From: a virus
Length of the DNA: 24,143 nucleotides
Direction: 5' to 3' (one strand)
IMG/VR virus record: IMGVR_UViG_3300042922_000347
Coordinates: 1-24,143 of that record
Shown here: in pieces, positions 2,170-15,741 of the stretch
Layout of the letters: each line of letters starts with the position of its first letter
Position numbering within the stretch: the first letter of the stretch is position 1
Position numbers and translations under genes: made by a program
The notes under the pieces: model-generated
Database searches by the model: none
What the model saw: the letters and a program-made list of their open reading frames with translations, nothing else
Told to the model about the DNA's origin: nothing

Positions 2170-5053
2170 TCTTTTTTTGCCGATCATATGCCTTTTTTGC
2201 TTCCTGCTGTTCTTGTGCTATCTTGCGCAACTGCTGTTGGAAGTCCATTAAAACTTGTTTTCGCTGTTCTGGTGTATACCGCTGATCTCGTTGTGCTTCG
2301 GCAATGCGTGCAGCGGTATCTCTTTTTTCTCTTTCAAGAGAACCAATTTTTTGCCGATAAAGTTCATCAACATTGAGCGGAACATTACGAACACCGCCAA
2401 AAACATCTGCAATAGAAGATGGTAGGTCATATTGCCTTCCCTTTGCATCTACTCCTCCTGTAGCCCCATTGTAGAGCTTATCAAAGGCGTATGTACCAGG
2501 TACAGGCGCTGAAGGTCCAATAGCATTAAATAGGTATTTAGCAAAGGCGTTGACTTTCTGCTCTTTTGTCATCCCGGGCTTGATAACGTCCATGCCTATT
2601 GCGTTCTGACCGGTACGGGCCAACATAACAGCATCAGAAATAGGATTTCCTAAAGAAACATCGTTGCTGAATGGTAGGATATAGGAAATATCAAGGTTGT
2701 TTTGTACCTTTTGTTCTTTTCCGTTTACGGTCCTTGTCCCTTCTCCTAGTGGGAGCAAAGTTTTGGATCGCATGTACTCAGGCAATATTTTATCCTGATC
2801 ATCGCTGTTTGTCTGGTTCTGCGGCTTAAGATACTTTGTAACCTGGGCAGGACGGTTATATAGGGCTCTGGCAGTCTCCTTAGTTGCGAAGTAAGGGAAC
2901 TTGGCAAAGGGGATTATACCGTTTTTAGATATAGTATTAATCCACTCTGGCGCTTGTCCGTAATTGAATAAGGCCCTGTCGGCTATCTTAGCAGCTTCTT
3001 TGGCTGTTTTCCCTTTGTCGCGGTGATAAGAATAGACAACAGCCCTCCAGTACTGATCCGGGGCCCCGAATGCTGACATAGCCTTATCAGCGAATTGCTT
3101 CACTGCATTTGGCTTGCCGCCTAAAATGTTCTTTAACTCCTGCTTGGTAAAGATATTGTCCATTATACCGGTTTGCATTAACTCGCGGATTTTGGGATCA
3201 TTCCACTTCTGTTTTGTGAAGATAGTCTTCATCTGCGCCATGTATTTAGGAAGCGCATACATAGGAACTTCCCCGAATACATTTGACATAGGAAGGCCGC
3301 TGTAGAAGTTTCTCATTATAGAGCTAGGGTTCGCTAATTTTGATATTTTCCACCAGCTAGTAAGCGTTTGTGCGGCTTTAAGGAGGCTGTCAGGAGCGGC
3401 GTTTGTGTTGGTTACGTTTAGGACTTGTTGGTACACGTCTCTAGGAACCCATTGACCAGCAAGAGCGCCATATCCTTTAGTTTCTGGTATTTGCAAGTAC
3501 CTGCGCCGTTCCGGTAAAGCACGAGATAACTCTGCTGCTTTTTCTGCACTGACTCCCCAGTCAGAGGCTACCTTTGATAGAAATTGATCTTCGCGCAATG
3601 TCTTTGATGCACGATTGAGCGTATCAGTCATGCGGTATTCTGCATTATTGATAACGCCCATCTTTTGAAGCGTAGCACTAGAAATGCTCTGCCGTTCAGC
3701 GAAATCTTTCATTGCAACGCGATGTTCTTGTCCAAACCCTTGGGCCCCGGCATTAGGAGTTTTAACGCTTGCCAAGTCTTTATAAGCTTTTGCGTATTCC
3801 TCTTGTGTGCCGTTCTTACGCAAATCTTCGAGGAAGTCAGCAGGGCTATCGTATTTCTCGTAGGAGCGCCTTAAATGGGATCCGTCAGGAAAATGTATTG
3901 CCGATTCATCTGCAAGCCTACTAGCGTTATAAAGCGCGTCAGATTGCTTTGTGTTTAGCTCGACAAACTTGTCACCTACCGATTGAATGGCCTTGCGTAG
4001 TCCGTTGTCAGGAATGGAGTTTAATATTTCATCCCGGTATTGATATGCAGGGAGCATTACATCTGCAACGCCATCAGCCCGGGCTTGTGTTTGGCGCACA
4101 TCAAGCAGGTAGTTCGGTATTTCTTCTCCACTGTTGCGGAAGGCATCTGCGGCAGTTTCTCTTGGAACGTTCCCGGCTTTAACTTCAGCAGCGAGCTTAT
4201 TATTTTTATGCAAGTCCAGTATGTCCGTTTGCATGTTAGGAGTTAGCTGCAATGTGCTTTGTGGCTTGTTTGCTGACTCAATATAATCAATCAATGGTTT
4301 ATCTGCTGCTGTTCCATACTGTGCTAACTCATCTTTTGCAAACTGTGTAACATCTCTTTGCGCTAGTTGATCCGTTGCTCGTCCTGCGTTAAACTCTGCA
4401 ATGTCGTCTGCAACGCGATTTTTGCCGAATATGTCCTCTAGTGTTGCAATACCTTTTTGCCCTGCTTCTGAGCCTTTTACGGCCTTTACAGCGGGGCTTA
4501 TTACATTGTCGGTTAATCCTATAGCTTTGCTTGCTTTAGCCGCACTGCCGACCATTTTGGCAGGAGTTGCAATCCACATTGGATCAAAAGCAATATCTAA
4601 TCCTAATCCTGCAACTGCTGCTGTTTTGGGATTTTCTTTTACCCAATCTTGATTAAAAGATTCTTTAAAAGATGGTTTTTCCTCCCACCCTCTTAGTGCA
4701 GCCTGCATTAATGTTTCATCTTGTGGAGAGTTACCGGATAAATTTCTTGTAACACCAGCAATAGCGCCTCTTGGTTTATCAAATACGCTAAGTGCATCAA
4801 GTGCCGCTATTACTGGTTTTGCGACTACATCAGCAACGCCAGAAACAACATCGTATAACCCTGTCCCTGATTGTTCTTGCTGCGGCTGTTGCTGTCCAAA
4901 TATTTGCCCTAATGACGGGCGCTGTTGTTCTGCTTGGATAGGTTGATAGTCGTACTGTTGCTGTGGTGGTTGAGAAAAAATCTGATCAAGAGAAGGGCGC
5001 TGGCCTTGTTGACCTGCGCCGCTGAATATTTCATCAAGTGATGGTCTGGGCAT
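2162..5053 (-). CDS. Large internal virion / DNA ejection protein (963 aa)
   Basis: The largest protein in the window. The ATG at 5053 fits an AGGTGAT ribosome binding site better than the GTG at 5062. The N-terminus carries three copies of RPSL[DG][EQ]IF at residues 3-10, 19-26 and 45-52 in a Gln/Pro-rich disordered tract. A long alpha-helical body follows. The region from about residue 570 to 760 (SWWKISKLANPSSIMRNF onward) resembles the domain found in large polyvalent phage proteins and ejection proteins. The last 60 residues are a charged Arg/Gln/Lys helix. It is third in a row of probable ejection proteins, as gp7-gp20-gp16 are in P22, and should be injected with DNA. Role is from position and general resemblance. 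Confidence 0.7.
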   Translation of the reverse strand: MPRPSLDEIFSGAGQQGQRPSLDQIFSQPPQQQYDYQPIQAEQQRPSLGQIFGQQQPQQEQSGTGLYDVVSGVADVVAKPVIAALDALSVFDKPRGAIAGVTRNLSGNSPQDETLMQAALRGWEEKPSFKESFNQDWVKENPKTAAVAGLGLDIAFDPMWIATPAKMVGSAAKASKAIGLTDNVISPAVKAVKGSEAGQKGIATLEDIFGKNRVADDIAEFNAGRATDQLAQRDVTQFAKDELAQYGTAADKPLIDYIESANKPQSTLQLTPNMQTDILDLHKNNKLAAEVKAGNVPRETAADAFRNSGEEIPNYLLDVRQTQARADGVADVMLPAYQYRDEILNSIPDNGLRKAIQSVGDKFVELNTKQSDALYNASRLADESAIHFPDGSHLRRSYEKYDSPADFLEDLRKNGTQEEYAKAYKDLASVKTPNAGAQGFGQEHRVAMKDFAERQSISSATLQKMGVINNAEYRMTDTLNRASKTLREDQFLSKVASDWGVSAEKAAELSRALPERRRYLQIPETKGYGALAGQWVPRDVYQQVLNVTNTNAAPDSLLKAAQTLTSWWKISKLANPSSIMRNFYSGLPMSNVFGEVPMYALPKYMAQMKTIFTKQKWNDPKIRELMQTGIMDNIFTKQELKNILGGKPNAVKQFADKAMSAFGAPDQYWRAVVYSYHRDKGKTAKEAAKIADRALFNYGQAPEWINTISKNGIIPFAKFPYFATKETARALYNRPAQVTKYLKPQNQTNSDDQDKILPEYMRSKTLLPLGEGTRTVNGKEQKVQNNLDISYILPFSNDVSLGNPISDAVMLARTGQNAIGMDVIKPGMTKEQKVNAFAKYLFNAIGPSAPVPGTYAFDKLYNGATGGVDAKGRQYDLPSSIADVFGGVRNVPLNVDELYRQKIGSLEREKRDTAARIAEAQRDQRYTPEQRKQVLMDFQQQLRKIAQEQQEAKKAYDRQKKIN

Positions 5054-14254: not shown

Positions 14255-15238
14255 TTATACCAATCTTTTATCAATTTGAGCTAACATGTCTTTTGGAATT
14301 TGGTCTGATTTGCCTTCTCTGATTAGCTGCTCTACTTGCGCCCAACTCATTGCCGAAGTCCTCGCTCCGCTCAAATTTGAGGCCCTAGGAAGGCTTGCTG
14401 CTTTATCAAGAGGGTTGATAGCAGGTGCTGGTTGTTGTGTTGGCGGCATAGAAAAAGCGCCCGTCATCGGCGCTGTATTTATACCTGACATTTTCTCTTT
14501 GCATTTACTGGCGAACTCTCGGATAATCACGAAATCATCTTTTGTTCCCCTGCCGGAATCAACACGTGCATAAGCGTCGTCAATCTTCTTTGCTTCCTTG
14601 CGCGGAAGTTCGTCAAGCTCTTGCTGTGCGAATTGAAACAGTACCGGGAAATCAGGAATTGCAACCAGTTCATTCACAAACGTTACGTTTTCGTTATATA
14701 CCTGCTGTTTTTGCTGGTATTCTGCTTCCATCCTAAACTCTTCTTTTGACACTTCTTTGACATACTGAAGATACTTCTTAGGATCAGTTAGGTTCAGCAA
14801 TTCTACGTCGTCTTCGGATATTCCAAGTTCCTTGCGTACCTTTTCATCAGCAGCCTTTGCAATTTGCTCGGAAACAGAAGCGTTCTGTTGAGGTTGTGCC
14901 TGTGGTGTTGGTTGTTGCTGTACAGCTTGTGGCTGTGGTTGTGCCGCCTTAAGTGCAGCCAATTCAGCAGCAAGTATTTTGTTCTTTTCATTTACTTCTT
15001 TGAACCGGTCATACGGAACATGTTTACTGGCTGTTTCGCCGCCAGGGGCGTTTTGTTCCGGTGCAGGTTCATTTACTTCTGGCTCTTGTGTTGGCTCTAC
15101 CGTAGGTTCCTGTGCTATTGGTTGTTCTTCTTTGGGGGAAATAGCTTGTAATTCTTCCTCTGAAAAGTGGTCTTTTAACGTGTCCACTGTCACGAAGTCT
15201 TCCGCAAATAATTGCAGGTCAAAGTCGTATTTACGCAT
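14255..15238 (-). CDS. Capsid scaffolding protein
   Basis: The ATG at 15238 has AGGAG eight bases upstream; an in-frame GTG at 15247 sits too close to that site. The N-terminus MRKYDFDLQLFAEDF is the typical leader of Firmicutes phage scaffold proteins. Residues about 35-75 are Glu/Pro/Gln-rich, followed by a coiled coil (VNEKNKILAAELAALKAAQ), a Gln/Pro linker and a helical domain (DEKVRKELGISEDDVELLNL to EFASKCKEKM). The C-terminus ends in a helix (SWAQVEQLIREGKSDQIPKD). Acidic, coiled and immediately upstream of the capsid gene, it should guide shell assembly and leave before DNA packaging. Confidence 0.85.
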   Translation of the reverse strand: MRKYDFDLQLFAEDFVTVDTLKDHFSEEELQAISPKEEQPIAQEPTVEPTQEPEVNEPAPEQNAPGGETASKHVPYDRFKEVNEKNKILAAELAALKAAQPQPQAVQQQPTPQAQPQQNASVSEQIAKAADEKVRKELGISEDDVELLNLTDPKKYLQYVKEVSKEEFRMEAEYQQKQQVYNENVTFVNELVAIPDFPVLFQFAQQELDELPRKEAKKIDDAYARVDSGRGTKDDFVIIREFASKCKEKMSGINTAPMTGAFSMPPTQQPAPAINPLDKAASLPRASNLSGARTSAMSWAQVEQLIREGKSDQIPKDMLAQIDKRLV

Positions 15239-15357: not shown

Positions 15358-15573
15358 CTATGCCTTAGTAACCATGCTTGCCTGTAGACCTCTAGGGCCT
15401 GTACCGTGAGTGAAATTAACCTCTGTTCCCGGTTCAAGATACATCACGCCGGGATGCTGTATTGCGCTGAAGTGAACGAAATACTTGTTCATTTGACCAG
15501 CTATGTTTTCATCAGGGGCCATAATATAGCCGTATCCCTTATTTACATCGAATTCTTTAACTATGCCTTTTAT
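15358..15573 (-). CDS. Cold-shock-domain protein with apparent AUA start codon
   Basis: This 71-codon reading frame encodes a complete cold-shock domain: KGIVKEF at the N-terminus, RNP1-like NKGYGYI (residues 11-17), RNP2-like YFVHFSAIQ (31-39), then LEPGTEVNF and GPRGLQAS. Such proteins bind single-stranded nucleic acid. No ATG, GTG or TTG exists at the expected start. The codon at the family's Met position (before KGIVK) is ATA, eight bases after a perfect AAGGAGG, and the preceding in-frame gene ends in TAA two codons earlier. AUA initiation is therefore the simplest reading. The first internal ATG (codon 18) would remove RNP1 and has no ribosome binding site. A sequencing error or read-through of the TAA are alternatives. 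The Trp usual after KGIVK is Glu here. Confidence 0.75.
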   Translation of the reverse strand: MKGIVKEFDVNKGYGYIMAPDENIAGQMNKYFVHFSAIQHPGVMYLEPGTEVNFTHGTGPRGLQASMVTKA

Positions 15574-15576
15574 CTC

Positions 15577-15741
15577 TTACACCTCCTTTGACGTAACAAA
15601 TCCAAGCATCTCAAGCGAGAATACCGCAATTGTATCGTCTGCTTGATCGCATAAAAAAAGAACGCCACCATCTGAATAGGCATCGTCCGCTTGTACTATG
15701 AATGTTCGATTGTCTTTTAGCGTAACTGTATATTCCTTCAA
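15577..15741 (-). CDS. Small acidic phage protein (54 aa)
   Basis: TTG start immediately after the portal stop (TAG then TTG), so probably translated by coupling; no strong ribosome binding site is seen. The sequence (KEYTVTLKDNRTFIVQADDA, then GGVLFLCDQADDTIAVF and LEMLGFVTSKEV) has the strand-turn-strand pattern of small phage beta proteins. The last three codons AAG GAG GTG double as the ribosome binding site of the cold-shock gene. Function unknown. Confidence 0.65.
   Translation of the reverse strand: MKEYTVTLKDNRTFIVQADDAYSDGGVLFLCDQADDTIAVFSLEMLGFVTSKEV

Follow-up and report, generated by a model that had tools for sequence, protein, structure and literature searches.

The stretch of DNA analysed here (the window; 24,143 nt, IMG/VR record IMGVR_UViG_3300042922_000347) carries a phage head operon in which a small cold-shock-domain (CSD) gene lies between the genes for the portal and the scaffold protein. 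The features of this region are listed below in the direction of transcription.

17727 to 15742, minus strand: portal protein gene (P22-like; PF16510, 7.8e-101).
15741 to 15577, minus strand: gene for a 54-aa protein, TTG start; its TAA ends 3 nt before the ATA.
15588 to 15580, minus strand: Shine-Dalgarno (SD) sequence AAGGAGGTG, a 9-nt contiguous anti-SD match with a duplex energy of -15.5 kcal/mol.
15573 to 15571, minus strand: ATA, putative start codon, aligned with the ATG of an orthologue (L007) and identical to the ATA of a relative (L002).
15573 to 15358, minus strand: CSD gene, 71 codons, from ATA to the stop codon TAG (15360-15358); assigned by Pfam (PF00313, 2e-14), AlphaFold (pLDDT 90), Foldseek (Bc-Csp, CspB, CspA) and a dN/dS of 0.05 versus L002.
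15298 to 15179, minus strand: a tandem array of three small hairpins around the scaffold start, with TTAAA or TAAAA after each.
15238 to 14255, minus strand: scaffold protein gene with SD AAAAAGGAG and a probable ATG start at 15238; the assignment follows from its location and the acidic character of its product.
14238 to 13264, minus strand: major capsid protein gene (PF13252, 2.1e-36; PHROG 334, major head protein).

The scaffold gene is located between the portal and major capsid protein genes, at the same place as in the relatives, and its product gave no matches in Pfam and PHROG searches. The closest terminases belong to Marinitoga viruses (57%) and a Thermoanaerobacterium phage (42%).

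The initial annotation of this DNA, made without database searches, had proposed that a full cold-shock domain is encoded between portal and scaffold, and this was borne out both by a Pfam search and by structure prediction. The protein matched PF00313 with an E-value of 2e-14 and 53.6 bits (the cut-off being 27 bits) over profile positions 2-65 of 66. The AlphaFold model, built from four orthologues, reached a pLDDT of 90 and has the five strands of an OB-type barrel (residues 2-9, 14-20, 28-34, 51-59 and 62-70), the first of which begins right after the ATA codon. Foldseek assigned it a probability of 1.00, with Bacillus Csp proteins (E ~2e-7 to Bc-Csp) and CspE/CspA as the top PDB matches. 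The sequence contains the RNP1 motif KGYGYI and an RNP2-like YFVHF, with surface aromatics, and the core residues are kept in all four orthologues aligned. Among phage families, PHROG 729 'cold shock protein' was matched at 6.9e-11; a search of a phage collection gave no matches at 60% identity or above, and a search of genome contigs gave two matches only, both distant and partial. Such a protein would be expected to bind RNA or DNA in single-stranded form; its probable role is that of an RNA chaperone for late mRNA of the phage.

On the minus strand the start region reads TTTGTTACGTCAAAGGAGGTGTAAGAGATAAAAGGCATAGTTAAAGAATTCGATG. No ATG, GTG or TTG able to start the whole domain in frame was found, as had been claimed: the CSD frame is closed upstream by a TAA (15579-15577), which is followed by GAG and then by the ATA, and the only ORF in this frame with one of these three start codons begins at an internal ATG (15522), comprises 54 aa and truncates the fold. 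A GTG at 15582-15580 was rejected as a start because it overlaps the SD sequence and is directly followed by the TAA. The AAGGAGG described by the initial annotation was found at 15588-15582, with 8 nt between it and the ATA, and the SD duplex ranks as the fourth strongest among 25 candidate genes of the window. We also considered a conserved RNA structure masking the SD in the window and L002, and discarded it, as the two start regions fold moderately (z of -1.3 and -0.65). A change of the genetic code (ATA as Met or TAA as a sense codon) was rejected too; ATA codons of the portal gene align mostly with ATT, ATC or ATA in relatives. Since ATA still encodes Ile elsewhere, and TAA, TAG and TGA each terminate genes here, no recoding is involved.

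The initial annotation had called for a comparison of start codons among orthologues, and had regarded a near-identical relative with ATG as evidence against AUA initiation. The relative in question, phage contig IMGVR_UViG_3300042923_000200 (L002/L005), shows ATA. Its portal is 97-98% and its CSD protein 97% identical to those of the window, and its CSD gene, preceded by TTTAAGGAGGTGTAAGCGATAAAAGGC, has the identical SD, TAA and ATA, with one adjacent base that differs (GAGATA vs. GCGATA). The SD of L002 forms 10 contiguous matches (-16.0 kcal/mol). This genome has no 54-aa gene, and its portal gene terminates at the SD.

Two further orthologues start with ATG. In IMGVR 3300042922_000250 (L007; portal 78%), a 65-aa CSD at the corresponding place starts AAAGGAGTAATTC-ATG, and this ATG aligns with the ATA of the window; the ATA, with its third base at 15571, indeed occupies the position of the family's Met1. 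In IMGVR 3300042922_000129 (L154), a CSD that is 76-77% identical has its ATG two codons further upstream, where it overlaps with the stop of the preceding gene (TGATG). The L154 portal differs from that of the window, and L154 was not retrieved by portal searches; it has both the CSD and the 54-aa gene, flanked by a large gene in the place of the portal gene and by the putative scaffold gene. The 54-aa homologue, directly upstream of the CSD (3828-3992), is 57% identical and has a TTG start too, so that in both the window and L154 the CSD is accompanied, between the portal and scaffold genes, by a TTG-started 54-aa protein; a pattern scan of IMG/VR found no homologue of it beyond L154. Different small ORFs occupy the CSD position in L006, L008 and L009. 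As to the remark that a CSD protein is unusual in a capsid operon, the placement between portal and scaffold is not unique, since L007 and L154 have orthologues there.

As these more distant orthologues start with ATG, the ATA is the derived state. The SD duplex energies of the ATG orthologues are -8.2 (L007) and -17.5 kcal/mol (L154), and because of the latter a strong SD cannot be regarded as special to the ATA copies. Tight spacing to the upstream stop is common to the ATA copies and the ATG orthologues and points to translational coupling; translation of the CSD gene is thus probably coupled to upstream termination. Scanning IMG/VR for an SD followed by ATA and K-G-x-x-V-K returned 28 contigs, among which the L002 relative was the sole CSD, so no further AUA-started CSD was found with this pattern. 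The ATG version of the pattern matched 109 IMG/VR contigs, and 6 CSDs were present among 80 of them.

Judging from these comparisons, we favour, with a probability of about 0.8, the reading that the locus holds a genuine, selected cold-shock gene of a tailed phage, predicted to be translated from AUA. The alternative that survives best is a variant of this reading and differs only in the reason for the AUA: the start would be real but a neutral accident, tolerated owing to the strong SD and without any throttling role. We regard it as a serious contender, somewhat short of an even chance. The ATA copies come from two genomes of a single lineage, the relative being a metagenomic contig, and the orthologues have ATG; however, a single transition would regain ATG, and yet ATA has been kept to a dS of ~0.36.

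It is very unlikely that the gene is a pseudogene in decay whose start codon has been lost. The orthologues have ATG, hence ATG was lost in the lineage of the window; nevertheless, in comparison with the diverged relative L002 the CSD gene is under strong purifying selection. Of its 213 bases 16 differ, but only 2 residues change, which corresponds to a dN/dS of 0.05 at a dS of ~0.36, on a par with the portal gene (0.045). In neutral simulations keeping the observed numbers of transitions and transversions, the mean was 11.5 residue changes, none of the 20,000 runs was as low as 2, and a stop codon was present in 34%. The SD, moreover, is still intact. Because the common ancestor of the window and L002 had ATA by parsimony, this constraint acted while ATA was the sole available start.

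Less probable still is a start at the internal ATG (15522), leading to the truncated 54-aa product. Although this is the sole canonical in-frame start and is present in L002 too, a product made from it would lack the RNP1 motif together with strand 1 and the greater part of strand 2; no SD lies immediately upstream, the codon is GTT in L154, and codons 1-17 align with all orthologues. Read-through of the TAA, which the initial annotation had itself raised and which would yield a fusion of the 54-aa protein and the CSD, deserves hardly any credence. The 54-aa ORF, the TAA and the CSD do share one frame in the window; L002, however, retains CSD, SD, TAA and ATA while lacking the 54-aa gene, the upstream frame there being out-of-frame portal sequence, and so neither the fusion nor a dependence of the CSD on the 54-aa gene is a conserved feature. 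In addition, L154 has the two genes in different frames, and TAA terminates other genes. Finally, an assembly or sequencing error concealing a true G (ATG) has nothing but the rarity of ATA starts in its favour and is just as hard to credit, because the ATA recurs in the separate contig of the diverged relative, whose copy of the gene differs at 16 other bases and has another adjacent base.

If the CSD gene is translated from AUA, as we prefer, the initiator tRNA would pair with this codon despite the third-position mismatch, and initiation would be enabled by the near-perfect SD. Further help would come from ribosomes that complete the preceding gene (the 54-aa gene in the window, the portal gene in L002) a few bases before the ATA. 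Compared with AUG, the AUA may lower the yield to about one tenth or one third. The result would be a late single-stranded RNA/DNA-binding protein held low relative to the capsid proteins of the same message. The AUA start probably throttles the amount of CSD protein; with two ATA genomes to compare, a low yield may be selected or simply tolerated. A more elaborate proposal, in which the AUA is a selected throttle, perhaps one that responds to growth state or IF3 as has been suggested for ccpN, and the scarce CSD protein remodels the scaffold-leader hairpins, tuning the scaffold:coat ratio, seems to us a long shot.

The scaffold-leader hairpins themselves have the form CGNN-loop-NNCG followed by TTAAAA, and one of them stands directly before the scaffold SD. 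The tandem element also occurs in L005, L006, L007, L008 and L147, as well as in L157-L236, with compensatory stem changes (CATC/GATG and CGCC/GGCG in L005, CGAC/GTCG in L007, CGAT/ATCG in L147). One scan of IMG/VR for CGTC-N4-7-GACGTWAAA-N0-4-AGGAG matched 90 contigs. Most ORFs downstream of the scanned hairpins look like scaffold genes, coding for acidic proteins with little Cys; of 10 tested, 5 matched named families of head scaffolding proteins, and several of these families differ. A second such hairpin was close by in 28 of the 68 distinct cases, as compared to 10.5% of random stretches from the same loci. An Rfam search of the tandem hairpins gave no credible match. RNA motifs named GP20-a and GP20-b have been described upstream of the scaffold Pfam family formerly called Phage_GP20, and they may be the same element. 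We consider the tandem hairpins a candidate for an operator that controls the translation of scaffold genes in many phages. Co-occurrence of a CSD with the scaffold hairpin outside this phage group was not found in the loci examined.

At 15359-15300 (minus strand), a further SD (TAGGAGG) shares bases with the CSD stop but has no ORF behind it. The stretch after this SD, with a GGCGAAAGCC hairpin, is nearly identical in L002, and L154 has a comparable one after its CSD. Elsewhere in the window, a tRNA-like sequence at 23138-23071 (minus strand) scored 37.8 bits with the Rfam tRNA model; its anticodon arm is shortened, it is rejected by ARAGORN, and more tRNA-like stretches seemingly lie just upstream.

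The AUA initiation that the initial annotation had called very rare is rare indeed, but not unheard of, since it is established in combination with strong SDs in infC and ccpN of Bacillota (PMC13009471). In S. aureus, AUA start codons are used by infC, ccpN and citZ, the first two with extended SDs, and B. subtilis shares the AUA of ccpN; in reporter assays, the start codons of ccpN, citZ and cvfC1 (an AUU gene) yielded ~10% of the AUG level, ccpN reaching up to 30% in rich medium (PMC13009471). The class of mechanism is thus already known in bacteria, while the phage case is new within the literature searched, where no phage precedent for an AUA start was found. It provides a comparative case for the lasting use of AUA as a start codon in a phage, with selection measured while AUA was present. 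Gene callers limited to ATG, GTG and TTG would omit or truncate a complete, selected gene for an RNA-binding protein in the head operon.

The phage CSD gene shares the AUA start with infC, ccpN and citZ, and the extended SD at suitable spacing with infC and ccpN; as in ccpN, the codon is kept between relatives, here in one relative (L002) with a strong, intact SD. The bacterial examples are host genes supported by ribosome profiling, and by reporters for ccpN and citZ, whereas the AUA start of the phage gene is a prediction from sequence. With regard to the protein, it is a family match to the phage cold-shock proteins of PHROG 729, but its identity to members of the phage collection is below 60%. 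It resembles CspA/CspB (PF00313) in the whole domain, both RNP motifs and the five strands, and differs from them in an F that replaces the usual W8, in ~5-6 additional residues between strands 2 and 3, in its AUA start and in its location in a phage head operon.
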